DNA of 30,185 nt from a virus: the IMG/VR virus record IMGVR_UViG_3300042391_000288, positions 1 to 30,185 of that record; one strand, written 5' to 3'. Positions 6,101 through 30,185 of this stretch are shown here, piece by piece. A program made the translations under genes and the position numbers. The notes under the pieces are model-generated. The model searched no databases. It was not told the origin of the DNA and worked only from the letters and a program-made list of their open reading frames with translations. Positions within the stretch are counted from its first letter, which is position 1; each line of letters begins with the position of its first letter.

Positions 6101-6563
6101 AAGCGATGAAATTATATACCACCCAGTAAAATATAAAGTATTATTTGGTAGCAAGGCTAGTCCTAATGTGCAGGCAACTTTTAAAGTAGTTAAAAATTCC
6201 GAAGTTGTTATAAGCGACAACGATATTAAAACAAGAACACTAGTTGCAATATCAGAATTTTTTGCTTTAGAAAATTGGGACTTTGGTGATAATTTTTACT
6301 TTAGTGAATTATCTGCCTACGTAATGAATAAGCTAAGTCCTAACATTGTTAACTTTGTTATAGTTCCAAAGAATTCGGGATTGAGCTTCGGTAGTCTTTA
6401 CGAAATTAGATCAGAGAAAGATCAAATTTTTATTAATAGTGCAACTATGGATGATATTGAAATTATCTCCACAATAACAGCGAGTCAAATTAAAAGCGCA
6501 ATGATTTTACAAGATCAAACAGCAGTCAGTCAACAGGCTATAACAAGTTCTGGGAGTAATTAA
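3114..6563 (+). CDS. 6: Baseplate wedge protein gp6, enlarged form
   Basis: gp6 dimers form the inner ring of the baseplate and connect neighbouring wedges. The N-terminus, with 'IYQSFRNADFQSYDFENLR', 'YPEDFNDYIESSEYLALIDL' and 'ARENFLELAERRESVLRLAR', is typical of gp6 in T4-like phages. A baseplate-J-like segment follows: 'FSDGVFGNLPQGTFRTYYRT' (about 346-365) and 'MITGEDYN' (about 431-438). The C-terminus (about 955-1125) is also conserved in style, with 'NFYFSELSAYVMNKLSPNIV'. At 1149 residues it is about 1.7 times T4 gp6 (660). The extra material lies mainly between about residues 550 and 930, where a calcium-loop-like DSDDDGVVDD occurs near residue 820. The start ATG follows GGGAAG by 5 bases. 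The stop overlaps the next start as TAATG. Confidence 0.9.
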   Translation: MSATDRQNRLLVAEDWKRIYQSFRNADFQSYDFENLRRVMIGYIRENYPEDFNDYIESSEYLALIDLIAFLGQSIAFRVDLNARENFLELAERRESVLRLARLLSYRSKRNISASGMLKFTTVSTTQNVYDSNGRNLSGQVVAWNDPANANWYDQFIKVINAALPATRQIGNPDRSGTVFGIPTSQYRFQSANTTVPVYEFTKGVDGRSMNFEVVSTTFTDGADISEEPPSIGNRLAFLYKDDGKGNGSSNTGFFLRFTQGTLSQGSFTLSQPATDESVDIDAVNINNSDVWLYRLDNNGSESEYWAQVPSFEGNNIIYNSLNKSIRNIYGVVTRANDRVSLVFSDGVFGNLPQGTFRTYYRTGNGLSYTINPKDVKNVSISIPYFSNIGQVETLTLSLGLQSSVSNSSPTESNDSIKANAPATYYTQNRMITGEDYNISPLSVNQQIVKVKAVNRSSSGISRYFDLVDPTGKYSKTNLFADDGVLYKQTYTSFFRFKYNTRTDIEAIIYNELSEVLRSSNLKNFYYSSFDRVPASLLGIIWKNVTTDTNQSTGFIEDIITSTAQRVGTYTSTLLRFFTVGSLVKFKSPTGYYFDRSNNNKLILSSANVQNLTDTIWAKVVTVAGDGTNNGIGTLSTGSGTIILNEIIPTLATIDEIIPAWRVSLEPGTISSMVDLVFSNKQFGLRYDTETRTWKIILETNLNTTDNFSLGRQGDTSNQKVDSSWLLLFTTDTENYTVTSRLSRYIFESKQQVRFFFDASDKIYDTRTNTVVKDVIKVLSINTQPSTTASFTYDRDWEITEEFVGLDGYVDTKKIQITFNDSDDDGVVDDPTLFETIVDPVNNAIPLANRYVVLERYIIEQGQEDYRYVPNTNNLVKVMLSQPTNTAGEITGQYFYFIDTDTVVKLNLAGEFIPTLDYRVYAGRDNLKFQYIHNADYESRIDPGLTNLIDIFVLTKQYDINYRQWLSNSITTEPLPLSSDALYNLLSPELNKIKSISDEIIYHPVKYKVLFGSKASPNVQATFKVVKNSEVVISDNDIKTRTLVAISEFFALENWDFGDNFYFSELSAYVMNKLSPNIVNFVIVPKNSGLSFGSLYEIRSEKDQIFINSATMDDIEIISTITASQIKSAMILQDQTAVSQQAITSSGSN

Positions 6564-15500: not shown

Positions 15501-18500
15501 ATCTTCCAGTTAAACATCGCTACGGCATCGAATTTAGACCAAGACAAAGTATGTTTGTCAACCGTATCGAAGCTTTAAAACAATTCATTGAACGAGTTAA
15601 TACTGTTATTAATACTAAATTAATTTCAGATGATTACGATTTAACAGACTTAGAACAATTCGAAGCAGAACCTAGTACTATTAGTGCTGAGTGGGATCGT
15701 GTTATAGATACTGATGCAGAATTGCGATTTGTCCCAACTATATTGTTAGATACCGCTACTGTTACTCCGGTAGTTGTTAACGGCAGAATCGTGAGTGTGA
15801 CTATAACCAATAGTGGTCGAGGATACGGTACTCTTAGGGAATATGCAGAAGGATTGTGGTATGGTCCGAATATTTCAGTAACTGGCCCAGGTAGTGATGC
15901 TGTAATTAAGACAATTATCGACGCGGCCGGCCAGGTTGTTGATACTGTAATTTTAAATCAAGGTCGCGGATATACCAACGATACTTCCTTGGTTATTAGA
16001 GATTTCAAAGTACTAGTTCACAGCGATACAACTTCGTATGATACATGGAGCATTTATGCATGGAATAAAGCAATTGGCGAGTGGACACGAGTTCGTAGTC
16101 AAAGTTACGATGTAAGGAAATACTGGAAATATCTAGACTGGTATGAAGCCGGGTATAACCAATTTGTTAAAATTGATTTCTTAGTAGAAAACACTTATGA
16201 ATTAGTAACAACAGATATTCCGCTTGGGTCGATAGCCAAAGTTAAGAATATTGGATCAGGCGGTTGGTTATTATTAGAAAAATTTAACAACTTATCGACT
16301 ATTGACTACACTCAGAATTTTAGAGTTATTGGCAGAGAACACGGCACTGTTGAATTTTTATCAAATTTATATAAATTTAATACCAGCACGGTAGGTTACG
16401 ACGGTCCGTTATTCGATGCAGACATATACGACAACAGTCCGACAACTGAGTTGAAAATAATTTTAAATGCAATAAAGGATAAGATATTAATTGATGAATT
16501 TAGAGTTGAGTTCTTAAAACTATTCTTTGCCAGTGTGCGATATGCACTTACTGAACAGGTGTTTATTGATTGGGCCTTTAAGACAAGTTTTGTTAAATCA
16601 ATGCACAATGTCGGCGAACTAAAACAAAAAGTTACATATAACAGTGATAATTTAGAATTTTTTGAATCTTATATTCGAGAAGTTAAACCCTATAGAACTA
16701 AAGTTAGAGAATATGTAAGTAACTATAGTAGTCTAGACAGGTCACAAAGTTCAGTAACTGATTTTGATTTACTTCCAGTTATAAACAATCAACTTGAAGT
16801 TAATCCGCTAACAGTTCATATTAATTCTAATGGTGAAGTTGTTACTGGATTTACTGAAATAGATACGTATCCTTGGAAACATTGGAATGATCACGTAGGT
16901 TACGAAATCATCTCAATTAAGGTAGTCGATGGCGGCACTGGATATGAAACTCGTCCAATTGTTGAAATTTCAGGAGTGCAAGTTCCTGGAGCTACATCAG
17001 CCTATTTTAAAGTAACCGACGGCACTGGAAATAATGATTTTGTAATCAAATTAACAGATCCGGCAAAAATTCAAAATGCTAGAGATCAAATAAACGGTGT
17101 TGTCCCTCGGCTACACATTACTGGTTTGATTATAAAAAGCACAGCTGATTACAATCCAAACTACAGTTATCATTACGATCCTGATACTATTGACTTTTTT
17201 GAAGTCGCTATGGAAGTATGCGATGCAACTTTTGACTATACTGAAGAGTATTTAGATGAAGCAGGTGGAGCATTTTTACCAGGATTAAGATTGTGTCCAT
17301 GGAACAGTCTTCTAGTAGAGGAGATTGCAGGAGTGCAAGTTCCCGGAGATACTACATTACCTGCATCAGCTGTTGCCTACATAAGCAACGGTAAAGTAAT
17401 TAGAATTGACATCGTTAATGCTGGCACACGTTGGGTATCAACACCTACGATTACAATACGCGGCGGCAACACCGCAGGAGTAGACACCACTGCAAGAGCT
17501 GTGGCAATTATTGGTAACGGAGTTATTAGAACAAATTATATCAAGATTAAATTTGATAGGACTAGTAAAGTATATGAAATAACTGAGTTAGCACAAGCTG
17601 AAACGTTTACGGGATCGGGAAGTAAAACTCAGTTCTCATTAAGATGGTCGCCTGATATTAAGTTTGGTAATTCTACTGTTACTATTGACAATACTGATGT
17701 ATTGAAAGATGACTATACACTAACTACTGTAACGTCTACTAGCAGAGGGTATACTAGTTACTCAGGGCTGCTAACGTTCGTCACACCGCCACCATTAGGT
17801 AGTGTTATTGAGATAACCTACAATAAAAATTATGTGCATTTGAATGCACTAGACAGAATTAATTTTTATTACAATCCAACGACTGGACAAATTGGTAAAG
17901 ATCTTGCACAGTTAATGACAGGTATCGATTATGGCGGAGTACAGATAACAGGATTAGGTTTCGGAGTTAACGTAGGTTGGGATGCCCTGCCTTGGTTTAC
18001 TGATGCCTGGGATGCGGTTGATCCGACATTTGAAGATTATATTGCAACAGTTAGTACTGTAACATATGCATATCGTATGCCATACGTTCCAGCTGTCGGA
18101 CAAGAAATCAATATATATGTTTCAAAGAATATACCTACAATCATAGTTGAAACTATCGGCGAAGTAGATGCAGCATTGGCTGAAATTGAGCCAGGCGATC
18201 TAGTAGTTAACGAAAGTCGTAGAGTTGTAATCAACAATGCAACAGTGCCTGCTACGCTGTACGTTTGGGACGGTAGCGAATGGAATAACAGTAACATAGT
18301 GGCAAGTTCGTCGTATCTACCTTCTGTGCGTATTGATGATTCTAATTATCTAACTATCAATCAAACTAACGATGCAGCTATAATGACATCATTCATCGGT
18401 GACGGTGAAGTCGATATTGTTACATTACCAACTTCACCGATTGCAACCGTATCTGTGATTAAAATTTCACGCTCAGCTGATGTGGCAACAGCAGTAACTG

Positions 18501-21292
18501 ATAAATTACACGGACTATTTGACGGAGAAGTAGTAACTATTTCTGTAATAACTCCGAACGGTACTTTTAGCGAAACGAATGTTGCTGTGACTATCATTAA
18601 TGGTAATACATTTAGTTACTTAAACACTGGTGTAGATACCGCAATTATTACCTCTAGTGGTCAAGTTACTGTTGCATTAAAAACAAATGATAGGATCACA
18701 TTCCGTAAAGATACTAGTGACGGCAGTTATGCTCCACGAGCCGACGAATATGATACACAGATTACCGGCGGCAATCTAGCATATTCTACAGCTAGCGGAT
18801 TAGCAGCCGATGATATTATCCTAGACGGTGACGGATTAATTACACCTGACACTAGTCATGCTCCTGAAGAAATAGTCCCTGGGCATGTAACTGATACAGT
18901 GGCAATTAAAGTATTCCACAGACCATCAGGCGGCTGTCCAAACATTTTGTTTAACAGCCACATCGGCGACGGAACTACTACTAGTTTTACCATTGGCCAG
19001 TATTTCCAAAATCAACAGTCTGTGATAGTTAAACTAGATGATGCAATACAGTTGTTAAACTTTAACTACACAATTGATTATCAAACTAATACTGTTATAT
19101 TTGAATCTGCTCCTGCAAACCAATCAAAGGTTACTATTTTAAGCATTAGTTTCAATAGTGCAAATATACTTGATCTTGATTATTTTGTATCGGACGGAGT
19201 TACTACTGAGTATATTACCAAGGCAAGTTGGTTACCAACTATAACATCTACAGTATTAGTAAATGGCGAAACATATAGCTATGTGTTGTTTAGTACAGAC
19301 GATACCTATACAGATAAAGTAGGTGAGTCGTGGAGATCGCGTGCCGGTATACGATTCGAAACAGCACCTCCGGTTGGGGCCATAATAAATTATGTAATTG
19401 ATGCTAACGGATTTGAACAAACAGCTAGTATTGTTAAGTCAGATACTGTGACCTTTACTACAGGTGTTCAAACTTACTCGTTAATTAATGCGGTAGGAGT
19501 AAACAGTCCATTAGATCAAAACGTGCTAGTAAAAACTGGACAACGTATTTTAAGACCAGCAAGTGCAAACTATTTTACAATGAATGACGATCAGTTAGTG
19601 TATGCCCTACGAGATTACAAATATTTAAATCTCGGAGTTAATGCTACTGATTTAACAGTTTATGTTGGTAGTAATTTATTGGCATTGGGCGCTGACTATG
19701 ATGTGGAATTCGACTACGAAGGAGCGATATACAGCTTAGTAGAAAATTCCACAGATATCCTTAGCGGCACAGACTACGAGGTTGATGATATTTTGACAAT
19801 CTCCGGCGGAACAGTATCTACTCTTGGATCTAGTGCAAAATTTTTAGTAACTCGAGTAAATGCATCCGGTCGAATCCAAACGTTAGAACCTATTGAACTA
19901 GGATCTTATGTTGTAGTTCCGGATGGCGTGATTATTTTATCAGGCGGGTCTGGCACCGATGCAACAATCAGCGCAACATTTGAAATTACTACAAATAGTC
20001 CTAACATTAGTGTAACGGTAAATCCTGCAAAGTATATTAGTGGAGAAAAACTAACTATAGTCATTGATAATGACGCCGAGTATACTATAACAAATAATAC
20101 TATTACCTTCACCGATACATATCCAGTTGGAACAATTTTTGAAGTAATAAGTTTTTACAATCACAATGTATTAGGTATAGAACGTACAGTTGACGAACTA
20201 ATTCCGACAACGGCTATAGCTAACGGTACAGCAGAATACTACGAGCTTGCTGGCAAACTAGGTGGCAAATTTAAATTAAGAAATACTGCAATATCGGGAG
20301 ATTTTGTTTGGGTTATTAAAAACAGTACACTATTGATGAGTGGTGTTGATTACAGATTAGATACTGATCATACTACTATTAAACTAAACAATTATCTGTT
20401 CGACGGCGATGTAATCCAAATAATTGCCTTTACAAATACAGTAGTACATGATAGTTTTGCCTATATGCAGTTTAAGGATATGTTGAATCGTGTACATTAT
20501 AAACGATTGAATAAAGCTAAGTCAACTAGATTAGATAAAGATCTAACACAGTTCTCTAAGACTATTACAGTACTAGACGGTACTGTATTAGATACTCCGG
20601 TTGCAAGTAAAAACCTACCCGGTATCATTGAAATCAATGGCGAGCGTATTGAGTACTTTAACAAAGTAGGCAATGTCTTAAGTCAGTTACGTAGAGGTAC
20701 ATTGGGTACAGGTATTCCTGTGCTTCACGGTAAAGATAGCCAAATTTTAAATATTGGATCTAGTGAAACTATTCCCTACAAGGACGAATATGTGATTAAA
20801 ACACATACCGCCGATGGTATTAGTAACACTTATGACTTACCGTTTACTCCGTCGATTACTACCGTTGGGAATAACATAGCTACCGACTTTGATGTATTTG
20901 TTGGTGGATATCGATTAAAGAAAAAAGAGTATACAATTTTTGCTAAGATTGACGGAGCAACTGGTCAACTAGTCCATCCTGATTATCCTGATAGTGTTGA
21001 AGGAGATATTACATTGCCTGCAGAATTTAGTAACACACCATCAACTAATTCTGCTATTAAACTAACCGCTACTCCGGAGTTGGGAGCTAAGATCGTTGTG
21101 GTTAAAAAGCAAGGAAAACTATGGAATGATCTAGGACAACGTCTAGCTAAATCAGATAATTCTGTGTCTAATTTCTTAAAAACTACTGGCACTAACTGGG
21201 TAGAATCATACCTAGATAAATATGAAGATAGAGTCTTAGGCGGCGACGGCAATCCTCTTCAAACCGGCGACGGTGAACCACTGGAATATTAA
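6563..21292 (+). CDS. Giant modular baseplate wedge protein (gp7 position), 4909 residues
   Basis: One open frame of 14,730 bases with no stop, starting at the ATG of a TAATG overlap with gene 6, with GGGAG 6 bases upstream. Its place directly after gp6 and its N-terminus ('LLPRFYRTNGNKKFLQATLD', then an aromatic WNPHICW...YYWLPFG block, residues 1-165) suggest the gp7-type wedge protein. T4 gp7 is 1032 residues. Approximate layout: core 1-165; cupredoxin-like 194-275; HGL module 515-595; core 1100-1500, Trp-rich near 1216; chitin-binding-like modules 1533-1577 and 1790-1836; core 1835-1955 with 'YLENIIQNDVSQYKFYQGMI'; FG-GAP-like propeller 2185-2690 containing a second HGL module; core 2735-3035; G-x-G-Y modules 3071-3145; core 3157-3393 ending 'REVKPYRTKVREYV'; then beta repeats to the end. 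No transmembrane segment, signal peptide or enzyme motif was seen. The family name is inferred. Exterior or fibre-like domains are plausible. Confidence 0.65.
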   Translation: MAYSKNQNEPKVPISNVEKRTTSDLLPRFYRTNGNKKFLQATLDQLTQPGTVKKLNGYIGRASAKAATSNDIFLQAPDKTRQDYQLEPAAIIKDYLGNTTFFKDYIDHINHIEVFDGNIKNHSRLNKEEFYSWNPHICWDKFVNYQQYYWLPFGPTPIEVLGNQLAIQSTYTVRSVDEVDNIAYLFTPNGLTRNPTLRLFRGQTYTFDIDAPGHPFSIKTQRVSGNLERYTQGVEGYAVEKGTITFTIPLTSPDVLFYVSENAVDTGGVFQILDIDENTSIDLGTDFLGKKTYTVPNGTAKGLSISNGMKLSFGGNVTPEKYGNGFWYVEGVGTEIQLVNEQELQVRTSFSVESQILFDNAPFDQLPFGDASVLPGTKDYITINRSSVDQNPWSRYNRWFHQDVVRAASIANGQEPDLDQTLRATRPIIEFNASIKLHNFGVKSKKAVDVIDNFTTDVFSTIEGTLGYNIDGIDLAEGMRVLFVADTDSMVRNKIFKVNFINVLPDSRQLSFDAATAVDIENDYITFTTEHGLNSKNQVTYLAEGNAPVSGLVNRQVYYVKAIDTFTIELYNNPTLTTKVDIFAPSLDIHKFELFPGYRRQITLIEEDDSNPQLYETVTVNYGQQELITSSITGNQGQTYWYNGTTWKLGQVKNSVNQPPLFDIFDINGNSYSDNSVYDGSTFAGTKIFSYKVGSGSNDSELGFSLTYQNINNIGDIVFEFNLLKDTFAYKNVTDILYKNTDVGYVKITRELDRYSFENAWKTSLIENSQPVVRIFKESGLINNFPIDVYDDLTALDDLEVRVYVNGKRIAKDAYTIETGIVRKHVVLNTEVALTDIVTLRCFSAQSKNDIGYYELPLSLQNNPLNNNIEQFTLGEVIDHVDSIIDNISVFQGVYPGDGNLRDIGNLSAYGTRFVQHSGPMNNSLYHLGSTNANVIKALDQARIDYGKFKRAFIIAATESGIDTDPRQHVDFILQRVNGARPKTDAYYLSDMFGYTASNRIEYTVVDSRIKMYPLTSAFNLDDCSNKSINVYLNGNQLIYGRDYIFGTDVFFEILTDIQEDDLIEAFEFESTDGCFCPPTPTKLGLYPKFVPKKYIDDTYIEPTEVIQGHDGSITIAFGDYRDDLLLELETRIFNNIKVHYNTDIFDVYDFIPGYNRKVPYSRTEVDTILSKYFFQWTINIQEDFTKDTWYDQTNSFTYNYRGSYTPDNLDVPAAWRGIYRWLFDTDRPHTNPWECLGFSIEPSWWQTVYGPAPYTSDNLVLWDDIKEGIVREPGVPVRRNPKFAKPILAQGLPVDDQGKLVSPKDSGLVQGTIQTGDGGYYTFGDHSMVETAWRRSSYLPFALIQACLLMQPNHVLGRCLDRSRIQRNLNNQLIYSSTGLRIRLEDIVVPSTSNRNNDTRQYACGLINYVIDYLSSENIIRIDQYAVDLKSLTNNLASRLGAFTNKPKYRILLDSKNPSSSGGVFVPEEDYAVELNVSSAIKKVTYSGVVITKFADGFEVRGYNFDNPYFTYYPPVQDGKTINVGGISESYITWSPAQIYIAGKVVKNDNQYYRVKTNHTSGEQFDSNYYSRLAGLPIVGGRDVVLKKTWDLTDPRVIAYGTKFYTIQDVADFLQGYGVYLEQLGFVFDDFDNDLATITNWETSVKEFLFWSTQNWSAGAVISLSPCANKLVFNSVNSVVGDITDQFRGYSVYRVDGQKLDFETITAYRNGNVFILEPEDTNYGIFGVTLYLLQKEHVVILENKTLFNDTIYDREAGYRQERVKIIGYVTSEWTGGFEIPGFIYDQAIVSPWGAWTDYRLGDIVKHKEFYYSANTFLVGSEKFNNEDWVLLDEKPKSELLPNWDYKAETFTDFYDLDSDNLDSGQQKIAQHLIGYQKRQYLENIIQNDVSQYKFYQGMIIEKGTQNVLNKLFDVLSADGTESLTFDEEWAFRVGEYGSVDTFNEIEFILDEASFKINPQPLELVDSLDVSALDFVYRQKPSDVYIKPANYTSNVWPTTNTTLDYLRTPGYVRKEDVQVNVDTLDDLVSYDISSFVEGDYVWTAFEPTVNRWNIYRFTSAPFVITNVTYSNSVVTVECDQTITLENLNVGDFIGLENVQSLKGFYKVTSKTLNKFTFSASLVGFSEFTESNKQEILPYVLTLQRVSNIDDANDIIPQRIKTDELIWADNNGNDQWTVYKNAGTYRRSTIVNSDPAEELNFGLASAISDSGNIAAISDTGGITIYQKGTADNSWKVNGRITRDDPNLTTTISTISLVTRLSNISTVTTATDHGLINGDIVSVLSSTDTTFTEKNVEVTVTGLKKFTYANIGSNVSSIGGIVVRTPTAAFGAMIKLSPDAYWLAIADINHSSNKGRVSMYTRQNNGEYLFKSHVVSQSPTVDEYFGNNIAFAKTDSGYLSVISAPGSDSVYVYNYVASWASAGVLTNDPSFGHDIALTHTGNILIVSAPRAASSSGSVFVYEYNGSTYDLANTLTADIANDAEMFGESAAISSNGNYIAVSATMADTGNTIDAGRVLVYKLDDASYVSGLPYQTIYSPRSETNEKFGFNIDFMNGSETLAVFSKHGDVDTTTSFDQYSEKLYPNSTVDGDRYVNDPASEPQQTSITFDNNSLRLIDRNINVGRIDIFDRYNTKFIYGESLSNTSLLWSGYGEDIAVGSDVILVSAIRESDSSKAESGTVYSYVKPVGTTSWTPFHVELPTIDIDKIKKVFLYNKVTSSIVTYLDVIDPIQGKIPGVADQEIRFKTFFDPATYSIGSAAVNVDDGANWTKNQVGMLWWDLTNAKFIDPRSGNITYRSSVWNQLYDTASIDVYEWVETSLLPSLWNKQADTEAGLAKGISGQSKYGDSIYSVSKRYDSISQTFKETYYYWVKNKKNTPNVPGRTLSAFDTASLIADPVAYGYPCIAFTGTNSLSLINLSRYLQDKNIVLNVQYWLSDYKNSNYHSQWKLLSTNETTVIPSLIEKKWFHSLVGKDDNDRVVPNIDLPVKHRYGIEFRPRQSMFVNRIEALKQFIERVNTVINTKLISDDYDLTDLEQFEAEPSTISAEWDRVIDTDAELRFVPTILLDTATVTPVVVNGRIVSVTITNSGRGYGTLREYAEGLWYGPNISVTGPGSDAVIKTIIDAAGQVVDTVILNQGRGYTNDTSLVIRDFKVLVHSDTTSYDTWSIYAWNKAIGEWTRVRSQSYDVRKYWKYLDWYEAGYNQFVKIDFLVENTYELVTTDIPLGSIAKVKNIGSGGWLLLEKFNNLSTIDYTQNFRVIGREHGTVEFLSNLYKFNTSTVGYDGPLFDADIYDNSPTTELKIILNAIKDKILIDEFRVEFLKLFFASVRYALTEQVFIDWAFKTSFVKSMHNVGELKQKVTYNSDNLEFFESYIREVKPYRTKVREYVSNYSSLDRSQSSVTDFDLLPVINNQLEVNPLTVHINSNGEVVTGFTEIDTYPWKHWNDHVGYEIISIKVVDGGTGYETRPIVEISGVQVPGATSAYFKVTDGTGNNDFVIKLTDPAKIQNARDQINGVVPRLHITGLIIKSTADYNPNYSYHYDPDTIDFFEVAMEVCDATFDYTEEYLDEAGGAFLPGLRLCPWNSLLVEEIAGVQVPGDTTLPASAVAYISNGKVIRIDIVNAGTRWVSTPTITIRGGNTAGVDTTARAVAIIGNGVIRTNYIKIKFDRTSKVYEITELAQAETFTGSGSKTQFSLRWSPDIKFGNSTVTIDNTDVLKDDYTLTTVTSTSRGYTSYSGLLTFVTPPPLGSVIEITYNKNYVHLNALDRINFYYNPTTGQIGKDLAQLMTGIDYGGVQITGLGFGVNVGWDALPWFTDAWDAVDPTFEDYIATVSTVTYAYRMPYVPAVGQEINIYVSKNIPTIIVETIGEVDAALAEIEPGDLVVNESRRVVINNATVPATLYVWDGSEWNNSNIVASSSYLPSVRIDDSNYLTINQTNDAAIMTSFIGDGEVDIVTLPTSPIATVSVIKISRSADVATAVTDKLHGLFDGEVVTISVITPNGTFSETNVAVTIINGNTFSYLNTGVDTAIITSSGQVTVALKTNDRITFRKDTSDGSYAPRADEYDTQITGGNLAYSTASGLAADDIILDGDGLITPDTSHAPEEIVPGHVTDTVAIKVFHRPSGGCPNILFNSHIGDGTTTSFTIGQYFQNQQSVIVKLDDAIQLLNFNYTIDYQTNTVIFESAPANQSKVTILSISFNSANILDLDYFVSDGVTTEYITKASWLPTITSTVLVNGETYSYVLFSTDDTYTDKVGESWRSRAGIRFETAPPVGAIINYVIDANGFEQTASIVKSDTVTFTTGVQTYSLINAVGVNSPLDQNVLVKTGQRILRPASANYFTMNDDQLVYALRDYKYLNLGVNATDLTVYVGSNLLALGADYDVEFDYEGAIYSLVENSTDILSGTDYEVDDILTISGGTVSTLGSSAKFLVTRVNASGRIQTLEPIELGSYVVVPDGVIILSGGSGTDATISATFEITTNSPNISVTVNPAKYISGEKLTIVIDNDAEYTITNNTITFTDTYPVGTIFEVISFYNHNVLGIERTVDELIPTTAIANGTAEYYELAGKLGGKFKLRNTAISGDFVWVIKNSTLLMSGVDYRLDTDHTTIKLNNYLFDGDVIQIIAFTNTVVHDSFAYMQFKDMLNRVHYKRLNKAKSTRLDKDLTQFSKTITVLDGTVLDTPVASKNLPGIIEINGERIEYFNKVGNVLSQLRRGTLGTGIPVLHGKDSQILNIGSSETIPYKDEYVIKTHTADGISNTYDLPFTPSITTVGNNIATDFDVFVGGYRLKKKEYTIFAKIDGATGQLVHPDYPDSVEGDITLPAEFSNTPSTNSAIKLTATPELGAKIVVVKKQGKLWNDLGQRLAKSDNSVSNFLKTTGTNWVESYLDKYEDRVLGGDGNPLQTGDGEPLEY
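7142..7385 (+). other. Cupredoxin-like domain inside the giant wedge protein
   Basis: Residues about 194-275 run 'NPTLRLFRGQTYTFDI', 'GHPFSIKTQRV', 'GTITFTIPLTSPDVLFYV' and end 'GGVFQILD'. This is the plastocyanin-like pattern often found in proteins of marine phages and bacteria. The first copper-type His is present (His214), but the usual late Cys/His/Met cluster is replaced by 'YVSENAVDTGG', so a structural role is more likely than metal binding. Confidence 0.6.
11159..12078 (+). other. Two carbohydrate-binding-like (CBM5/12-type) modules in the giant protein
   Basis: Residues about 1533-1577 ('ITWSPAQIYIAGKVVKND', 'QYYRVKTNHTSGEQFD') and 1790-1836 ('AWTDYRLGDIVKHKEFYYSA', 'EDWVLLD') share the pattern Trp...Tyr-x-x-Gly-x-x-Val...Tyr-Tyr...Phe...Tyr/Trp. 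It resembles small chitin-binding modules. About 650 bases of other sequence separate the two. The assignment is from motif shape only. Confidence 0.4.
13151..14640 (+). other. Seven-bladed FG-GAP-like beta-propeller in the giant protein
   Basis: Residues about 2197-2690 contain seven blade starts: FGLASAIS, FGAMIKLS, FGNNIAFA, FGHDIALT, FGESAAIS, FGFNIDFM and YGEDIAVG. Each is followed by a strand of the type 'GNYIAVS' and most by a 'GRVLVYK'-like strand. This matches the FG-GAP repeats of integrin-alpha-type propellers. The gap between blades 1 and 2 is longer because an HGL module is inserted there (about 13310-13530). The usual DxDxDG calcium loops are not evident. Confidence 0.65.
16971..17343 (+). 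repeat. Exact 16-base direct repeat, copies 357 bases apart
   Basis: CAGGAGTGCAAGTTCC occurs at 16971-16986 and 17328-17343. Both copies are in the same frame and encode GVQVPG within ISGVQVPGA and IAGVQVPGD. The spacing is exactly 119 codons, so recombination between the copies would delete or duplicate a segment without shifting the frame. Confidence 0.85.
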
Positions 21293-21293
21293 A

Positions 21294-22124
21294 ATGGCTA
21301 CAATAAACGAATTAGCAACGATAACTACACCATCAAATGACTCAGTAATTGTAGTCACTGATGCTACGTCTTCTAAGAAAATAACATTTCTTGATCTTAA
21401 AAGTAGTATAGTTCAAACAGCATCGGCTACTACATACGGCGTGATAAAAGTCGGATCCGGGTTAAACATCAGCGGATCCGGTGTAATGTCTGTAACTAAT
21501 TACAGTGATTACATATTACCTCCAGCAAGCGGCACAGCATTGGGCGGTATAATTGTTGGTAACGGACTAGCGGTAGATCAAAACGGTGTTATTAGTGTTG
21601 CTTCTCAAAATATACCACCCGCGAGCACTACAACGTACGGTTTAATAAAAGTTGGCTCGGGGCTGTCTGTAGTTAACGGCGCCCTAACAGCCGCTCCCCA
21701 GTATGAGCTACCTGCGGCTAGTGATACTACGTTGGGCGGCATAAAAGTTGGTTCCGGATTAGTAATTGAAGATTCAGTGCTGTCCACAGCAGGAAATTTT
21801 GTTATTACTGAATCTGATCAGATAATTTCTGAAGATTACATCACAACTGACAATAAAAAATCTTACAGTATTGGCCCGATTACTATTGATAAAACAATAA
21901 CATTTACCATTAGTAAAAATTCAACTTGGGTAATTTATAATCCCGAAGATGGAATTAATCCAATTCCTGCCCCAGCAAAGACTCCAATTCAGGAGCAAGA
22001 CACAGAAATTACAGATAATTACATCATACAAAACAATAAAATTGCCTCTAGTAATGGACCAATTACTATTGGCAGATCAGTAACAGTGGAAATTGCACCG
22101 TTATCTACGTGGATTATATTTTAA
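21294..22124 (+). CDS. Repeat-rich tail fibre or baseplate decoration protein
   Basis: A 276-residue protein of probable fibre type. The opening 'MATINELATI...DSVIVVTDATSSKKITF' resembles the N-terminal adaptor of small phage fibre proteins. Four imperfect units with a period of about 32 residues follow (about 45-68, 79-103, 111-134 and 143-166), each of the form T-x-x-G-x-I-x-V-G-x-G-L, linked by 'LP.A' stretches. The C-terminus holds two related blocks (about 175-216 and 236-276) sharing 'GPITI...STW'. An in-frame GTG at 21273 would overlap the giant gene. I prefer the ATG at 21294, one base after the giant gene stop, because it gives the usual fibre-type N-terminus. No strong ribosome site is visible, so translation may depend on the upstream gene. 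The exact virion position is unknown. Confidence 0.65.
   Translation: MATINELATITTPSNDSVIVVTDATSSKKITFLDLKSSIVQTASATTYGVIKVGSGLNISGSGVMSVTNYSDYILPPASGTALGGIIVGNGLAVDQNGVISVASQNIPPASTTTYGLIKVGSGLSVVNGALTAAPQYELPAASDTTLGGIKVGSGLVIEDSVLSTAGNFVITESDQIISEDYITTDNKKSYSIGPITIDKTITFTISKNSTWVIYNPEDGINPIPAPAKTPIQEQDTEITDNYIIQNNKIASSNGPITIGRSVTVEIAPLSTWIIF
21426..21791 (+). repeat. Four coding repeats of about 32 codons (GxIKVGSGL units)
   Basis: Units begin with TTYGVIKVGSGL, TALGGIIVGNGL, TTYGLIKVGSGL and TTLGGIKVGSGL. The same unit type recurs in the next gene (about 22320-22510: SVLGGVRVDG and SILGGVKVGTGL), so the repeat family spans two neighbouring genes. Confidence 0.75.
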
Positions 22125-22157: not shown

Positions 22158-23081
22158 ATGGCAAATTTAAAACTTTTAGGAGCATCGTCTGGATACACAG
22201 AAGTATCTGCAGCTCCAAATGCCGTACCTACAACATTCATTCTGCCTTCAGCAGACGGTACAGCTGGACAAATTTTAAGCACTAACGGCGCAGGCCAGCT
22301 AGCGTTTATAACAAATCAAGCTGCATCATACACTTTACCGGCAGCATCTGCTTCGGTATTAGGCGGTGTTAGGGTTGACGGTACAACAATAACTATTAAC
22401 GGATCTGGAATAATTTCATCTGCATCTGCATACACATTACCAACCGCATCTGGTTCTATTCTAGGTGGTGTCAAAGTTGGCACAGGGTTAAGCATTCTTG
22501 CAGGAGTATTAAGTGTAGCAACTGATCTTGCAGCTGGATCGTTACAAGTTATCGACGACAACGAAGGTCCGAATACTTATCGCACTGCTCGAGTTGACAC
22601 AGCAACTGAAGGTACCCCCAACAGTATTGCTTGTCGAGATATCGAAGGAAACTTAAATGCTGTATTCTTCCAAGGAACCGCAACTAGTTCGCTGTTTGCT
22701 GACTTAGCTGAAAAATATATAGCTGATGCCGTGTATGACCACGGTACTGTGTTAGAATTTGGCGGTGCCCACGAAGTTACAATAGCTGAAGCTGAAACAA
22801 CTAAAGTTGCTGGTGTAGTATCTACTAGTCCTGGCTTTATAATGAACAGCGGACTAGAATGTTCAGTTAGCGCAGGCGAACGTACAGCCGTAGTAGCCCT
22901 ACAAGGTAGAGTTCCTGTTAAAGTTAAAGGTGTTGTCCGTAAGGGTGACATGATGGTTAGTGCAGGCAACGGATTTGCCAAGGCATCGGATGCACCAGCA
23001 ATCGGAACTATCATCGGTAAAGCACTAGAAAATTTTGATGGTCCAGAAGGGGTTATCGAAGTTGTAGTGGGACGAATTTAA
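22158..23081 (+). CDS. Tail fibre-type protein with C-terminal DLAE domain
   Basis: A 307-residue protein, preceded by a clear TAGGAG ribosome site 10 bases upstream. Residues 1-50 ('ANLKLLGASSGYTEV...FILPSADGTAGQILSTNG') match the opening of many marine phage fibre proteins. Residues about 54-118 carry two of the LP-A-S...LGG-V-x-V units seen in the preceding gene. Residues 141-161 are 'YRTARVDTATEGTPNSIACR' and lead into 'FADLAEKY' (about 180-187). A compact beta domain follows with 'VAGVVSTSPGFIMNS', 'VALQGRVPVKVKGVVRKGD' and 'IGKALENF'. That C-terminal arrangement resembles the Peptidase_G2-type self-cleaving or chaperone domain at fibre tips. I cannot confirm catalytic residues. It is likely a virion surface protein. 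Confidence 0.65.
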   Translation: MANLKLLGASSGYTEVSAAPNAVPTTFILPSADGTAGQILSTNGAGQLAFITNQAASYTLPAASASVLGGVRVDGTTITINGSGIISSASAYTLPTASGSILGGVKVGTGLSILAGVLSVATDLAAGSLQVIDDNEGPNTYRTARVDTATEGTPNSIACRDIEGNLNAVFFQGTATSSLFADLAEKYIADAVYDHGTVLEFGGAHEVTIAEAETTKVAGVVSTSPGFIMNSGLECSVSAGERTAVVALQGRVPVKVKGVVRKGDMMVSAGNGFAKASDAPAIGTIIGKALENFDGPEGVIEVVVGRI

Positions 23082-23099: not shown

Positions 23100-23711
23100 A
23101 TGCAAGGTAAAGATCTATCAGGAATCCATATTGAGGGACATATTAAAATATGGTATCCCGAGTCCGGCGAAGTTGCTGTCAATAAGCGTAATGCTATCCA
23201 TTACGAAAATATGAGTGTCGCCCTTGCAGAGAGTATTGCCGATGCAGGTCAGGGTTTTATTAATAAAATGGCATTTGGTAACGGCGGCACTAGCGTCGAT
23301 CCAACTGGCATTATTACCTATCTTACTCCTAATTCAACGGGTACTAATGCTAGTCTGTATAATCAGACATACGAAAAAGTAGTCAACGATAGATCAAGCA
23401 GTAATTTAGATCCAACTAGAAATTATATTGAAACTCGACACGTAACTGGTAAAAATTATACAGACGTGTTTATAACCTGCTTATTAGACTACGGTGAACC
23501 TAACGGTCAAGAAGCATTTGATAACACCAGTAACAGCGATAGCGACTACGTATTTGATGAACTGGGATTAGTATCATATAGCGCAACAGGCAATCCTAGA
23601 TTGCTAACTCATGTTATTTTTCATCCAGTTCAGAAGTCATTAAACAGACTTATTCAGATTGACTACACAGTTAGAATTCAAAGTCTAACAGGACTAAGTG
23701 AGGTAGCTTAA
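23100..23711 (+). CDS. Conserved phage structural protein of unknown function
   Basis: A 203-residue protein in the fibre cluster. Visible stretches are 'IHIEGHIKIWYPESGEV', 'KRNAIHYENMSVALAESIAD', 'INKMAFGNGGTSVD', 'LDYGEPNGQEAFD', 'YVFDELGL' and 'THVIFHPVQKSLNRLI'. I recall similar proteins among marine T4-like phages without an assigned role. There is no signal peptide, membrane segment or enzyme motif. The His- and Asn-rich first third and beta-rich second half would suit a baseplate or fibre-attachment part. It starts 18 bases after the previous stop with a weak AAAGAGAA site. Its stop overlaps the next start (TAATG), which ties its expression to the fibre that follows. A fibre connector role is possible but unproven. 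Confidence 0.6.
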   Translation: MQGKDLSGIHIEGHIKIWYPESGEVAVNKRNAIHYENMSVALAESIADAGQGFINKMAFGNGGTSVDPTGIITYLTPNSTGTNASLYNQTYEKVVNDRSSSNLDPTRNYIETRHVTGKNYTDVFITCLLDYGEPNGQEAFDNTSNSDSDYVFDELGLVSYSATGNPRLLTHVIFHPVQKSLNRLIQIDYTVRIQSLTGLSEVA

Positions 23712-26029
23712 TGTCTTATAAATTAAATTATACCGATACAGCTGCTAACCCTAATCCAATTACAGTACCTGATCAAGATCTTAATACTACATCTACGGAC
23801 TTAACATTTGTTGGCAAGAACTTTCCAGGATACTCTCAAAGTATCGGAGAAAATTTTCTACACCTGTTGGAAAATTTTGCATCTGCTACCGCCCCTACAA
23901 AGGCAATAGCCGGGCAATTATGGTACGATACTACAACAAATAAAAATCAATTAAAAGTTTATGATGGTGTTAAATGGTCCGAAGCTGGTAATGTAAAGAA
24001 GGGTTCGACAAAACCTACACCGACAAACAGTATTGCAGGTGATCTATGGGCTGATACTGCAAACCAACAGTTATATCTCTACACTGGTTCAATATGGGTA
24101 CTAGTAGGTCCTCAGTTTAGCGAAGGTACTGCCTCAGGTCTCAAAGCCGAAACGGTTATAGATAGAAGTACAAATACTCCTAAAGTTATTTTAGTATTCT
24201 ATGCATCCGGTGCTCCCGTAGTTATTATTAGCAAGGATGCATTTACACCAAAATCTACTATTAGTGGATTTGAAACTATTAAGCAAGGTATAAGTTTATC
24301 AACTGATGACTTCGATGGCGATGGTATAGTATTAAACAAATTTTGGGGAACTAGCGAAAAAGCAGATGCATTAGTCATTGGTAATAGTATTGTCCCCGCT
24401 GGCAACTTTTTACGCAGTGATTCAGTAAGTACAACAAATTTTACAATTAATATTAGAAACGGTTCAGGATTAGTAATCGGCGATAGTTTACAAACATCAC
24501 TGACTTCATCGGGTTCCGGAGCAATTTTAAATCACAAAACAACTAATTCGCCTATTATTTTACAACAAGGTGGCAGCAGTGTTTTAACCATCCTTAATCA
24601 AAAGGTCGGTATTAATAAAACTGATAATTTATCTGCTGCGTTAGATGTTACAGGTGATGCGTTAATTAGCGGATCGATCGCTAGTGCCAGCTTAACTACT
24701 AGTAACAACGTGTCAGTTGGTAGCGCACTAACTGTTACTAATACATTAACAGTTGGCGGAATATCTACAGTTAAGAACATATTACCTAATGCTGTAGGTG
24801 ACTATGACATTGGATCAACTACTCGTAAATTTAAAAACGTATATTCGGAAAATTTGTATGGATCGGAGTTCTACGGACACTTTAACGGTGATATAACAGG
24901 TTCGGTGTTGGGGACAGCATCGAGTTTATTCAACACTGTTAACTTCTCCATTGCTGGTGACATGATTTCGGGTATAGAAACTTTTAACGGCACAGGCGAT
25001 GTTACTTTAAATGTTGTAGTTAACGAAGATATCATTAGCGGCAAATTAGCACTATCGTCGGACGATACTAGGACGGCAGATAGATTTTTAGTATTAAGTA
25101 ATAAGTTTGGTACACTAAGAAGTATCAACAAAGAAACATTATTTTCAACAGCAGGTACAGTACCGGCAGGTTCGATCATGCCATATACTGGTGACACTCC
25201 ACCGCCTGGTTACTTATTCTGTGACGGTAGTGAACAAAGTCGGGGATTGTATTCTGAACTTTTTGCAGTCATAGGTTACAAATTTAAAGCTGTGGAAACA
25301 TTAGTTGGATATCAAACATTTGCATTGCCTGACCTACGTGGTCGATTCCCGTTGGGTAGAGACAACATGGATAATGGCAACGAAGTTAATGTTCAAATTT
25401 CTGCAACGGCTGCAACTAGATTAGCTATTACAGCATTAGCAGCAATTCAAGCTACATTTGTTGTCAAAGACGGCACGCCCCCAAGTCCTGGCGCCCCTGG
25501 CACTACAAATGGTCCTTTCCAACCTGGTAAAACAATAACAGGTACAGGACTAGACGGCACAGCAACAATTACTTCAGTAACTCCTAACACACCGTCTGCG
25601 GGCTTTTCAACTATTGTAGTTGCTATGCCAGCACAGACAGTAACATACCCTGCAGCATCGGGCCTAGTGTTAGTTTCAATAGGTACAATAGACAGCGGTG
25701 GCGGAACAGCATCTCGAGTTTCTAGTGCATCGGCACTGGGATTTGCTGGAGGAACAGACGACATAACAATCGGACAAAGTAACTTACCAGATCACACCCA
25801 TGATTTAAAAGACAGTGTTGGTAACCAATACACTGCAATTCGAAATACTACTGGAGCTGTGCCGGAACCTGAAGTTATTACTGGTAGTATACACTTTACC
25901 AGTGGAGCAGGACACTTGTTAAAAAACAGCGGTGGCATTAGTACTGCAGGTGCATTAGGTCAATCTATAGACACTATGAATCCGTATCAAACAATCAACT
26001 ATATTATATTCACTGGTAGGATCATCTAA
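23711..26029 (+). CDS. Short tail fibre-like adhesin with phage collar domain (gp12-like tip)
   Basis: A 772-residue receptor-binding fibre. Residues 1-230 form the N-terminal domain shared with the next two fibres: 'GENFLHLLENFASATAPTKA', two 'GxLWxDT...LYxY' units and 'NKFWGTSEKADAL'. A shaft of T/S/V/N-rich strands follows (about 230-440), including 'IGSTTRKFKNVYSENLYG'. Residues about 482-557 are a phage tail collar domain: 'AGSIMPYTGDTPPPGYLFCD' and 'FALPDLRGRFPLGRDNM'. Residues 559-656 are an insertion not expected in this family. The tip then resumes with 'GGGTASRV' and 'LPDHTHDL', whose His695-Thr-His697 matches the metal-binding HxH of T4 gp12 tips, and ends 'MNPYQTINYIIFTGRII'. A GAGGT site lies 6 bases before the start. 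Confidence 0.82.
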   Translation: MSYKLNYTDTAANPNPITVPDQDLNTTSTDLTFVGKNFPGYSQSIGENFLHLLENFASATAPTKAIAGQLWYDTTTNKNQLKVYDGVKWSEAGNVKKGSTKPTPTNSIAGDLWADTANQQLYLYTGSIWVLVGPQFSEGTASGLKAETVIDRSTNTPKVILVFYASGAPVVIISKDAFTPKSTISGFETIKQGISLSTDDFDGDGIVLNKFWGTSEKADALVIGNSIVPAGNFLRSDSVSTTNFTINIRNGSGLVIGDSLQTSLTSSGSGAILNHKTTNSPIILQQGGSSVLTILNQKVGINKTDNLSAALDVTGDALISGSIASASLTTSNNVSVGSALTVTNTLTVGGISTVKNILPNAVGDYDIGSTTRKFKNVYSENLYGSEFYGHFNGDITGSVLGTASSLFNTVNFSIAGDMISGIETFNGTGDVTLNVVVNEDIISGKLALSSDDTRTADRFLVLSNKFGTLRSINKETLFSTAGTVPAGSIMPYTGDTPPPGYLFCDGSEQSRGLYSELFAVIGYKFKAVETLVGYQTFALPDLRGRFPLGRDNMDNGNEVNVQISATAATRLAITALAAIQATFVVKDGTPPSPGAPGTTNGPFQPGKTITGTGLDGTATITSVTPNTPSAGFSTIVVAMPAQTVTYPAASGLVLVSIGTIDSGGGTASRVSSASALGFAGGTDDITIGQSNLPDHTHDLKDSVGNQYTAIRNTTGAVPEPEVITGSIHFTSGAGHLLKNSGGISTAGALGQSIDTMNPYQTINYIIFTGRII
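25385..25678 (+). other. 98-codon insertion within the collar/tip of the fibre
   Basis: Residues 559-656 lie between the collar signature 'GRFPLGRDNMDNGNE' and the 'IGTIDSGGGTASRV' segment, which usually follow each other closely. The insertion is Ala/Thr/Pro/Gly-rich, with 'PPSPGAPGTTNGPFQPG' and alternating beta-type strands. It begins and ends in frame. It is a candidate exposed receptor-contact loop. Confidence 0.5.
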
Positions 26030-28899
26030 TGACTTATAAGATTAACAAAACAGATGGCAGTTTACTAGTAGAAGTTATTGATAACGAAATCAACACTTCT
26101 GCTGCTGATATTGCTCTAATAGGAAAAAACGTCTCGGGCTTCGGCGAATACATTAATGAAAATTTTATCAAACTGTTAGAAAATTTTGCAGCAACTAGCG
26201 AACCTAATAATCCTATTGCAGGCCAAATATGGTTTGATACTAGTGAAAATAGATTAAAAGTATATGACGGCAATGGTTTTAGAATTGGAAGCGGCCCAAT
26301 TGTATCAGGTACCGCTCCGTTAAATCCTATACAAGGCGACTTTTGGATTGATAGTGAAGAAAAACAGTTGTATTTTTATGACGGTACTGATAGAAAACTA
26401 GCCGGCCCGATCTACAAAGAGAGTCAGGGTATTAGTGGGTTTCAAGTTGAAACAATATCTGATACAGCAGGCAATCGTCGAGCCGTTGTTGTACTTTACG
26501 TTGCTGATAAAATATTGGGAGTGTTTAGTAAACACGAAGAATTTACACCAGCAGCTGGCTCACTTAATCCGTCAGACTTTACTGGAAATGTTAAAACTGG
26601 ATTCACCCCGGGTACATTAGCTGGATTTAAATTTCATGCAAGAGCTGCAAGTGCAGATGCCCTAGTAGACACATTAGGTGATTTAAAAACAGCCAACAGT
26701 TTTGTTAGTACAGAAGCCAGCGGCGGCAGTACTAGTATGTACAGAACATTGTCAATATTAAATAACGAGCCGCTTAAACTAGGTGCCGGCCTTGAAAATA
26801 CTGTAACAGTAACAGACTCGTTATTCCAAATTCGCAGTAATGTTACACCTGCATCTGGTGAGCCTGGACAAGAATTTCAAATTGTAACACGAGATAGTAC
26901 TGGTGCATCGTCGTATGCATTAGTAATTCAAACAGAAGATACTATAAAACGAGTTGGTATATTTACTGACGCTCCGGCAACTACGCTCGACGTTAACGGT
27001 TCTGCTACAATTCGTGGTGACTTAACTGTTATAGGTGATACTACTACTATCACAGCTACTGAATTAAACATATCTGATAAAAATATCACACTAGCTGCAG
27101 GTAATACGTTAGATGCTATAGCAAATGGCGGAGGCATCACACTTAACGGTCTTACTGATAAAACATTCAATTGGATTGATTCAACTGACAGTTGGACTAG
27201 TAATCAGCATATTGATTTAGCATCAATTACTAAAGATTATAAGATTGGCGGCTCTACAGTATTAAGTTACAACTCGCTAGGTACAGGTATAACAACTTCT
27301 TATCTTACTAGTGTGGGTACATTAACAAGTTTACAAGTTGACAACGTAAACATTAACGGCAATACTATTAGTTCAACTTCTGGCGATATTAGAATTATAC
27401 CAGCTGGTATCAGCCGAGTAGACTTTAAAGGCACTAGGGTCATCCCTACTATCCTAACAGGAATTCAAACACCTTCTGGCCCAACAGATGCAGCCACAAA
27501 AGGATACGTTGATGCAGCTGTGCCGGCAGATTGGATATTACTACCAAATTTATCTGTTGCACCTATTTTTGGAAATATATATCAAGCTGAAGTATCTGAT
27601 AGGTTTATTGTTGATACACTAACTAGTGGTGAGGTTAAGATCACATTGCCTCAAAATGCTGTTGATGGCGACCTTGTTAGATTTATTGACGCTAAGGGTA
27701 ATTTTGGTACAAGTAGTTTAATTATTCGACGATACAGATCTGTTAAAACAGATGTTGGTGACTTCGGTGGCGGAGTTTCCAGTCTTACCGAAGTTGGTAC
27801 ATATAACAACGGCGGCGATGGACTAGCAACAACTTCGGACGGTGCAGGTACTGGCCTTACAGTTAGTATTACTACTACAGATTTAGGCGATACATACACT
27901 CCTCTCAATACTACAATTGAAATTATTAATCAAGGTGATGGGTATGCTAGCGGTGAAGAAATTACAGTAGCAGGAGCAGACATCGGTGGCGGATCTGATT
28001 TAATTTTTGTGCTTGATATGCATAAAATACTAAATGCAAACTTAGATTTAGAAGTTAACGACCCTGATGCTGCGTTTGGTTTAATTTTTGTTGACTCTAC
28101 TAACAACTGGAAATTTGCAGAAACTACAGTATTGCCCGTAGAAATATCAGTTGCTGTTGTTGGCACGCTAACTGGCAATGTTATCTCAACTAATACTGAT
28201 ACTACTATATTAAATACTAGTAACCCTGTTGCGGTGTTTACTGGTAATGTTACCGGAGATGTCACTGGGGATCTTACAGGAACTGCTGACCAAGCAGATG
28301 CTGTATATGCAGCTGTTGGATCAAGTACAAACAGTAATTTTAGTCTTCCGTACATTACCGCAACATCTGGATATCTTGAACTTAAAACAGATCCTAATTT
28401 ACTGTTTAATCCTAGTACAAATACACTTACAACTGATTATATTTCAGCACCGTTTGGTATTACTGGACCGTTGACAGGTAACGTTACAGGCGGAGCATTG
28501 ACAGTTTCGGGAACTAGCAGCCTAACACTATCATCAGGTACTAATTCAATACTTGTTCGTTCAGGCAATAGTGGTATTAGATTAAGTTCTTTTACAAATG
28601 ATGGTCTTCAAGAACAGTATAACATACAAATAAACCCTGCTACCAACGACACCTTGCGTCCAACTACTTTGTTGTACGGTAATGTAGAAGTTGTTAATAT
28701 CCCAACTCCAGGCGCCCCTGGCCCTACATCATTCGGATCGTCCTTCAAATTACCTACGTACACTAATGCACAATTAGCAGCTAGAACTCTAAACCAATTA
28801 AACTATGGTGAATTAATTTACAATAGTGATACTAATCAAATTAGAGCGTTTATCGACGACGGTAGCGGCACAACAGGCATCTGGGTTACTTTGAATTAA
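26029..28899 (+). CDS. Long modular tail fibre protein
   Basis: A 956-residue fibre. Residues 1-230 are homologous to the N-terminus of the preceding and following fibres ('NENFIKLLENFAATSEPNNP', 'AGQIWFDTS', 'GDFWIDSEEKQLYFY'). The shaft includes 'TTLDVNGSATIRGDLTVIGD', 'ISDKNITLAAGN' and 'PTDAATKGYVDAAV', all common in marine T4-like fibres. A glycine-rich module with 'INQGDGYASGEEITV' (about 630-665) resembles modules in the giant protein. The C-terminus 'KLPTYTNAQLAARTLNQLNY' and 'GELIYNSDTNQIRAF' is a frequent end module of marine phage fibres and may act in trimerisation. No collar domain is present. The start lies in a TAATG overlap with the preceding fibre, with GTAGGA about 9 bases upstream. 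It is likely a host-recognition fibre or its baseplate-proximal part. Confidence 0.8.
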   Translation: MTYKINKTDGSLLVEVIDNEINTSAADIALIGKNVSGFGEYINENFIKLLENFAATSEPNNPIAGQIWFDTSENRLKVYDGNGFRIGSGPIVSGTAPLNPIQGDFWIDSEEKQLYFYDGTDRKLAGPIYKESQGISGFQVETISDTAGNRRAVVVLYVADKILGVFSKHEEFTPAAGSLNPSDFTGNVKTGFTPGTLAGFKFHARAASADALVDTLGDLKTANSFVSTEASGGSTSMYRTLSILNNEPLKLGAGLENTVTVTDSLFQIRSNVTPASGEPGQEFQIVTRDSTGASSYALVIQTEDTIKRVGIFTDAPATTLDVNGSATIRGDLTVIGDTTTITATELNISDKNITLAAGNTLDAIANGGGITLNGLTDKTFNWIDSTDSWTSNQHIDLASITKDYKIGGSTVLSYNSLGTGITTSYLTSVGTLTSLQVDNVNINGNTISSTSGDIRIIPAGISRVDFKGTRVIPTILTGIQTPSGPTDAATKGYVDAAVPADWILLPNLSVAPIFGNIYQAEVSDRFIVDTLTSGEVKITLPQNAVDGDLVRFIDAKGNFGTSSLIIRRYRSVKTDVGDFGGGVSSLTEVGTYNNGGDGLATTSDGAGTGLTVSITTTDLGDTYTPLNTTIEIINQGDGYASGEEITVAGADIGGGSDLIFVLDMHKILNANLDLEVNDPDAAFGLIFVDSTNNWKFAETTVLPVEISVAVVGTLTGNVISTNTDTTILNTSNPVAVFTGNVTGDVTGDLTGTADQADAVYAAVGSSTNSNFSLPYITATSGYLELKTDPNLLFNPSTNTLTTDYISAPFGITGPLTGNVTGGALTVSGTSSLTLSSGTNSILVRSGNSGIRLSSFTNDGLQEQYNIQINPATNDTLRPTTLLYGNVEVVNIPTPGAPGPTSFGSSFKLPTYTNAQLAARTLNQLNYGELIYNSDTNQIRAFIDDGSGTTGIWVTLN

Positions 28900-28953: not shown

Positions 28954-30185
28954 ATGCCTTATAGCGTTGACAGATACAGTGTTCCGACAACTTACGTAGT
29001 TGAAGACGGTACAATTGACAGCAGTTTAGATATCAAATTAATTGGTAAAAACTATGCCGGCTACGGTGAAGTTCAAAACGAGAATTTTTTACATTTATTA
29101 GAAAATTTTGCGGGTACAGCAGCACCACCTCGCCCTATAGCTGGACAAGTTTGGTACGATTCTGCAACAAAAAAATTAAAATTTTATGATTCATCGTCAA
29201 CACGATGGAAACCAACAGGCGGAGCCGAAGTAGCTACTACAGCACCAGCTGGCCTTACCAAGGGCGACTTTTGGTATGATTCTGCAAATAAACAGGTGTA
29301 TGTATATGATGAAACAGACTACATACTGATAGGCCCGCAAGGTGTCGCCGGTTTAGGCACAACCGAAATGAAATCACGTATTGTTACTGATAATGCTACT
29401 GGTGCAAATCACGGTATTATTACAGCATTAGTTGATGGCGCGGCAATTTTTATTATTTCAACAGACGAATTTACTTTAAGCACAATTAGTGCTCAAGATT
29501 TTCCGGGATTTTCTGCAATTAAGAAAGGCATTACACTAGTAGATACTGGTACTTCCGGAGCAACAACTGGAAATTTAAGTCCTGTAGCAAAACTATGGGG
29601 AACATCATCAGCGGCTCTTGGCCTTGTTAATGCTAGCGGTAACGTATTGACCTTTGCAGATTTTGTTCAAACTGGTGACTACGGTAGTTTCTTAGATGCA
29701 GGTTTTGCGGTAGGTACTGGTTCTGATAAACTTATTGTTAAGATTGATACCGACGGTGAAACATCTATTATTAGAACTGCAACTGGCAGTGGTGCATTAA
29801 AACTTCAGACATATTCTGGAGATTTATTAAATCCATATACTCCATTAAAGTTACTAGGACAACATGTGCTTCCGGGTGTAGACGAAACAAATGACCTAGG
29901 TTCTGCTTCTATTAAATTTAGAAATCTATATGCTAAAACTATATACGGTGATGGCGCAAACATAACTGATTTAAGTGCAACTCAGCTAACTTCAGGAACT
30001 GTACCTGCAGCTAGATTGGCAGGTTCATACACAATTAATATTAACGGTTCGGCAAGTTCAGCAACTACCGCAACTACCGCAACACAAGCAAATAGTTTAC
30101 TATATGACGGTGTATATAGAACAGCTGCTGTTGATACAGCAAGTACTGGAACAGCTTTTTCGGTTGCTGTCCGTGATGCCGACGG
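28954..30185 (+). CDS. Third paralogous tail fibre, 3'-partial
   Basis: The open frame runs from the ATG at 28954 to the window edge without a stop, giving at least 410 residues. It begins 'MPYSVDRYSVPTTYVVEDG' and carries the same N-terminal domain as the two preceding fibres: 'NENFLHLLENFAGTAAPPRP', 'AGQVWYDSATKKLKFY', 'GDFWYDSANKQVYVY' and 'KLWGTSSAALGLV'. A shaft follows with 'DLGSASIKFRNLYAKTIYGD', 'LTSGTVPAARLAGSY' and an ATTATTATQA run. The last visible residues (from 388, 'YRTAAVDTASTGTAF') align with residues 141 onward of the 307-residue protein. The missing end therefore probably contains a DLAE-type C-terminal domain. The start is supported by GAGGGG 9 bases upstream. Function: host-adsorption fibre attached to the baseplate like its paralogues. 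Confidence 0.8.
   Translation, partial: MPYSVDRYSVPTTYVVEDGTIDSSLDIKLIGKNYAGYGEVQNENFLHLLENFAGTAAPPRPIAGQVWYDSATKKLKFYDSSSTRWKPTGGAEVATTAPAGLTKGDFWYDSANKQVYVYDETDYILIGPQGVAGLGTTEMKSRIVTDNATGANHGIITALVDGAAIFIISTDEFTLSTISAQDFPGFSAIKKGITLVDTGTSGATTGNLSPVAKLWGTSSAALGLVNASGNVLTFADFVQTGDYGSFLDAGFAVGTGSDKLIVKIDTDGETSIIRTATGSGALKLQTYSGDLLNPYTPLKLLGQHVLPGVDETNDLGSASIKFRNLYAKTIYGDGANITDLSATQLTSGTVPAARLAGSYTININGSASSATTATTATQANSLLYDGVYRTAAVDTASTGTAFSVAVRDAD
30061..30083 (+). repeat. Short 9-base tandem repeat in fibre gene
   Basis: GCAACTACC is present twice in tandem and is followed by a partial third copy, GCAAC. It encodes an Ala-Thr-Thr run in the fibre shaft. It is a small possible slippage site that keeps the frame. 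Confidence 0.7.

Follow-up and report, generated by a model that had tools for sequence, protein, structure and literature searches.

A tail fibre gene of an uncultured large phage, on the virus record IMGVR_UViG_3300042391_000288, carries a long segment between its collar domain and its HxH motif, and the question raised by this locus is whether that segment is an insertion and what it might do at this end of the fibre. We analysed the whole stretch of 30,185 nucleotides (positions 1 to 30,185 of the record, hereafter the window), and the features needed for the argument are as follows.

23100–23711, plus strand: 203-aa gene, syntenic and 72–88% identical in relatives (phrog_11259).
23711–26029, plus strand: gene encoding a tail fibre of 772 aa that carries a Collar domain and an HxH tip (from the ORF, Pfam, PHROGs and orthologues).
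25169–25351, plus strand: Phage Tail Collar domain PF07484, aa 487–547 (Pfam E 1.1e-17; homology to T4 gp12).
25370–25699, plus strand: insert relative to loop-less relatives, aa 554–663 (110 aa), from the alignment with relatives.
25385–25678, plus strand: the segment as delimited in the first-pass annotation, aa 559–656 (98 aa), from the in-frame translation.
25478–25501, plus strand: Pro/Gly-rich PPSPGAPG, aa 590–597, missing in the three other homologous inserts; an indel loop within the insert.
25793–25801, plus strand: HxH motif (HTH, aa 695–697), placed like the metal site of T4 gp12 described in the accessible part of PMC3004832.
25802–26026, plus strand: C-terminal tip part, ending in the conserved NPYxTINYII.
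26029–28899, plus strand: 956-aa fibre with the same N-terminal domain, the downstream neighbour also in relatives.
28954–30183, plus strand: third fibre, again with this N-terminal domain, truncated where the record stops.

The PF07484 match scores 64.2 bits against a cut-off of 24 and spans the full model (1–57); it is the sole Pfam match of the 772-aa protein (E up to 0.1), and the PHROGs found there are tail and tail collar families. Downstream of the collar lies the HxH pair of a T4 gp12-type tip, HTH at aa 695–697 (the HxH of gp12 is at 445). The N-terminal part of the protein is common to the next two fibre genes and occurs also in the large phages Agrobacterium phage Atu_ph07, Sinorhizobium phage Phosso and Pseudomonas phage PA5oct. 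The first-pass annotation had placed a 98-residue in-frame insertion at 25385–25678; these coordinates give exactly 98 residues, and the segment does separate the collar upstream from the HxH motif downstream. From the start of PDLRG (aa 540) to the start of the HxH (aa 695) the spacing is 155 residues, compared with 52 between PDxRG and HxH in T4 gp12, and the greater distance is due to the insert. Its description as Pro/Gly-rich was right for proline (10 of 110 residues in the insert against 25 of 662, p 0.023) but not for glycine (13 of 110 against 72 of 662, p 0.74). The GC content of the insert (45.8%) lies at the 98th percentile among 330-base stretches of the window; third-position GC, at 23.6%, is not raised over the 26.2% of the gene, which traces the rise to the amino acids, and a recent foreign origin judged by composition was rejected on the same values.

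A single-chain AlphaFold2 model of aa 478–772 had a mean pLDDT of 69.5, with the insert at about 46–75 by 10-residue block and strands predicted within it at about aa 558–561, 579–586, 618–625, 632–639 and 658–661; modelled alone, the insert reached a poor pLDDT of 52.3. In VIA-align the tip model was closest to 1ocy (Z 8.2), 5iv5 (7.8), 5lye (7.2), 8kec (7.2) and 2xgf (6.6), values that come from a model of middling quality and fall in the range flagged by the tool as possibly just a common arrangement. The ranges of these five span both sides of the insert (for 1ocy, 80 residues aligned over model positions 1–293); rows over the insert itself (SETX, Spr0693, Rubisco and MCE domains) had a Z of 4.5 or less and were not used. 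Foldseek found no PDB match to the tip model at E 0.001 or better; among predicted viral proteins 33 matches reached E 0.001, and many of these carry the name collar protein. By sequence, the tip alone gave only chance-level hits in the PDB, while a profile of 41 tips matched T4 gp12 over the collar only (1ocy, E 1.3e-5); with 9qgo, a tail fibre protein, the match took in both collar and tip (E 5.2e-10).

With T4 gp12 (1ocy, 5iv5) the fibre end thus shares the collar by sequence, the HxH pair after it and, going by a model of middling quality, possibly the fold on both sides of the insert. The long tail fibre gp34 of Anabaena phage A-1(L) (8kec) appears from the same model to have in common a collar-like domain and an HxH tip (model positions 3–291), but it has several HxH repeats and is without a long insert between collar and first HxH; the arm domain of this long fibre bound host cells in vitro, according to the accessible part of PMC10966104. 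For T4 gp12, the accessible text of PMC3004832 places the ion on the threefold axis, with His445 and His447 of each chain as ligands, and describes an insertion loop in the flower motif of that protein. Because it also describes the metal site as buried deep inside the C-terminal domain, the word 'tip' may mislead. In marine phage fibres, HxH motifs have been proposed as iron sites (PMC11705849, accessible part).

How usual such a segment is was surveyed in viral contigs searched with an alignment of five collar tips, which gave at least 600 pattern matches, at least 501 of them confirmed. The sample consisted of the best 80 of the at least 501 loci, ranked by likeness to the window tip, a ranking that favours insert-bearing tips; these loci held 57 distinct C-terminal proteins, and with the truncated L025 and L070 taken out and L109 and the window added, 57 distinct tips were compared. 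The loop was measured from the M of 'DNM' to the R of 'RV', with the ends in L021 and L064 set by hand from the sequences. Among these 57 tips (best 80 of at least 501 loci, L109 and the window), 12 had a loop of 6 aa, 39 one of 20–38 aa and six one of 102–121 aa; in the 12 insert-less relatives PDLRG and HxH are 48–49 residues apart. Collar and tip had been said to sit normally close together, which fits 51 of the 57 tips (6–38 aa), with the correction that the usual spacer is 20–38 aa rather than zero. Relative to these commoner short-loop relatives, the window insert adds about 90 aa. The collar-HxH segment is also far shorter in Salmonella phage PT1 and in two proteins of Arthrobacter phages, and four orthologous or closely related tips (L039, L052, L064 and L068) are without any PxHxH and keep the collar and the final NPYxxINYII strand. 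A scan of viral_contigs for PDLRGR...PxHTH at 134–154 codons gave no match, which says little, as it used one proline codon and exact letters only; the pattern does find the window itself, and L017 and L020 came from the protein search.

Three kinds can be told apart among the six long loops. Kind A comprises the window, L017 (three identical loci), L020 and L109, all homologous; besides the window, the homologous insert occurs at the same site in six contigs with three distinct sequences. Kind B is that of L021, present in six contigs, three of them those of L021–L023, identical across the insert, and it matches the virion-protein PHROGs 5342 (E 2e-5) and 438 (E 2.9e-5). Kind C, in L064, matches PHROGs 6002 (E 5.9e-4) and 6005 (E 7.5e-4). 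The collar-HxH loop is filled differently in relatives, with dissimilar inserts in L021 and L064.

The collar fibres compared are orthologues and not merely proteins with shared domains. In seven contigs the giant gene is followed by the 203-aa gene, then the collar fibre and two more fibres of the same N-terminal type, and this order is shared by the eight aligned orthologues, window included. The fibre N-terminal region lies upstream of the tip at 73 of 81 loci (best 80 of at least 501, plus L109), and the eight others all have fewer than 900 bases of fetched upstream sequence. Every one of the 12 records searched had at least three fibre matches, and the insert profile matched once per record in six of 13 records and nowhere else in those records. 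The fibres of uncultured large phages (L099, L100, L103 and others) agree with that of the window in gene order and are 44–55% identical at the N-terminus, 56–64% in the collar and 31–49% in the tip; they differ at the loop, which has 6–38 aa or, in L021/L098 and L064/L101, is occupied by a dissimilar insert.

Two further differences from these relatives were observed along the same stretch. Two genes, 21273–22124 (283 aa) and 22158–23081 (307 aa), separate the giant gene from the 203-aa gene. The 307-aa gene has no match at this place in six of seven relatives, where a related sequence follows the third fibre, and in L097 a match is found in both places; its protein matches Phage_head_fibr, and Peptidase_G2 only below the cut-off of that family. 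The giant ORF (6563–21292) contains at aa 3479–3588 (window 16997–17326) a Pfam BP74_N domain (E 4.2e-40), which had no PDB sequence match at E 0.01. In tblastn comparisons with the seven syntenic contigs, six alignments break at about aa 3471–3486 and resume at 3591–3601, and in the seventh (L098) a gapped alignment passes through, so that BP74_N is apparently an accessory domain that this phage carries.

Within its lineage the insert is kept about as well as its surroundings. Against L097, the nearest fully aligned relative, the window shows 162 of 299 identities in the N-terminal part, 63 of 175 in the stalk, 49 of 76 in the collar, 51 of 100 in the insert and 54 of 111 in the tip, so the insert (51%) resembles the tip that follows it (49%). 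A crude codon count for one near-identical pair, L017 and L020, gave 31 silent and six changing differences in 108 insert codons, next to 28 and five in 75 codons of the collar part and 24 and six in 109 of the tip. The insert thus has no excess of amino-acid change of the kind expected of a hypervariable or DGR-type target in this one pair, and the codon counts point to purifying selection on it there. Together with the flank-like identity, this suggests a conserved accessory domain of one lineage rather than a hypervariable patch. The alternative raised at the outset, that the segment is core fold carried and conserved by all close relatives, applies to the nearest relatives (three distinct sequences), in which the segment is about as conserved as its flanks, and fails in the wider family, most members of which are without the segment or have something else. 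Being absent or replaced there and kept in the nearest relatives, it is an insertion, but a conserved one: real, in frame and restricted to one lineage.

We consider it somewhat probable that the insert is a beta-domain added as an accessory to a receptor-binding-type tip, in a loop prone to insertions. The fibre end would be a T4 gp12-like receptor-binding domain, the collar being followed by the HxH metal-site fold, and the loop joining the two would tolerate insertions. In this phage and three related ones, that loop would hold a homologous accessory domain of about 105–115 aa, predicted to be mostly beta strand, its two Pro/Gly-rich loops varying in length; the insert alignment breaks at aa 590–597 (Pro/Gly) and at a loop near G613/L614, and the four copies differ in length there. 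The fibre is presumably trimeric, in which case the tip would have three such domains at its sides, where they would most likely add host-envelope contact surface or stabilise the tip. A role of the insert in host specificity, as the first-pass annotation had proposed, would be a reasonable inference from the kind of domain around it.

A possible, though less probable, account makes the insert a structural spacer or stabiliser that lengthens or braces the tip, or packs on the baseplate or a neighbouring fibre when stowed, and plays no part in receptor choice. Conservation like that of the flanks and purifying rather than diversifying selection in the one close pair speak for it, as does the T4 gp12 receptor-binding domain, which before infection is tucked beneath the baseplate (PMC3004832, accessible part); the dissimilar inserts of L021 and L064 in the same loop suit an outward slot better than a packing contact, which argues indirectly against it. 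A bolder form of the accessory-domain reading, which we hold only tentatively, is that in a family of large uncultured phages the loop is an interchangeable socket: unrelated small domains, of which at least three kinds occur, would be exchanged there by recombination and would retune binding around an unchanged core of trimeric collar and metal site.

It is likewise possible, though less probable, that the insert belongs to a beta-module, which we call 'GTGI', found in other phage virion proteins. The two have an order of motifs in common (PGKxIxGxGL...TITSV...TIVV and VGMPISGPGI...TTITAI...TLTLS), but the hhalign probability is 3.6% (E 0.012) over 23 columns only. The collar protein of Bordetella phage PHB04 likewise carries an in-frame module with a similar motif order in a collar-domain fibre; there, however, the module lies within the collar itself (L011:2933–3598) and splits the Pfam match in two, and its kinship with the insert is put at that same 3.6%. 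Nor did the stretch 25370–25710 match any Pfam or NCBIfam model, its best PHROG having E 0.11. The insert alone gave zero tblastn matches in phages, a scan of genome_contigs with the insert profile yielded 69 pattern matches and 0 confirmed, and structure and sequence searches found no known fold for it.

It is improbable that the insert was already there in the ancestor and disappeared from most relatives, instead of having been gained. In a midpoint-rooted tree built from the 57 tips without their loop, the four homologous inserts of kind A form one clade (support 95/94) amid short-loop rows, and kinds B and C are placed elsewhere, so that three changes are needed; the long loops are unlike in sequence (hhalign probability 0.3% for A against B and 0.2% for A against C, from four A sequences only, with distant kinship possible), and T4 gp12, with its distance of 52 against 48–49 residues, is near the loop-less state. 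What speaks for an ancestral insert is that the tree is rooted only at the midpoint and that the AU test does not reject a single clade of all six long-loop rows (A+B+C, p 0.137), nor A+B (p 0.373) or A+C (p 0.131). A single gain of kind A is well supported; B and C were likely gained independently, but the AU tests leave joint clades unrejected. An assembly artefact, a frameshift or a selfish element such as an intein can be dismissed, given the same-place homologous insert in six other contigs (three distinct sequences), the open reading frame with 0 internal stops and the lack of a Pfam or NCBIfam family over 25370–25710.

Shuffling of domains is well established for phage receptor-binding proteins, with examples that, in the accessible part of PMC10684548, are mostly swaps of the whole C-terminal end, and our literature searches, which covered few subscription journals, turned up no paper describing the stretch from collar to HxH as a hot spot for insertions. 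The orthologues form a natural series in which one internal loop is empty, short or occupied by three dissimilar inserts. The loop is thereby a concrete place for testing the effect of an internal insert on binding, and a candidate site at which such fibres tolerate added domains. Such phages seem to use the place between collar and HxH as a slot for added parts, beside their host-binding end.
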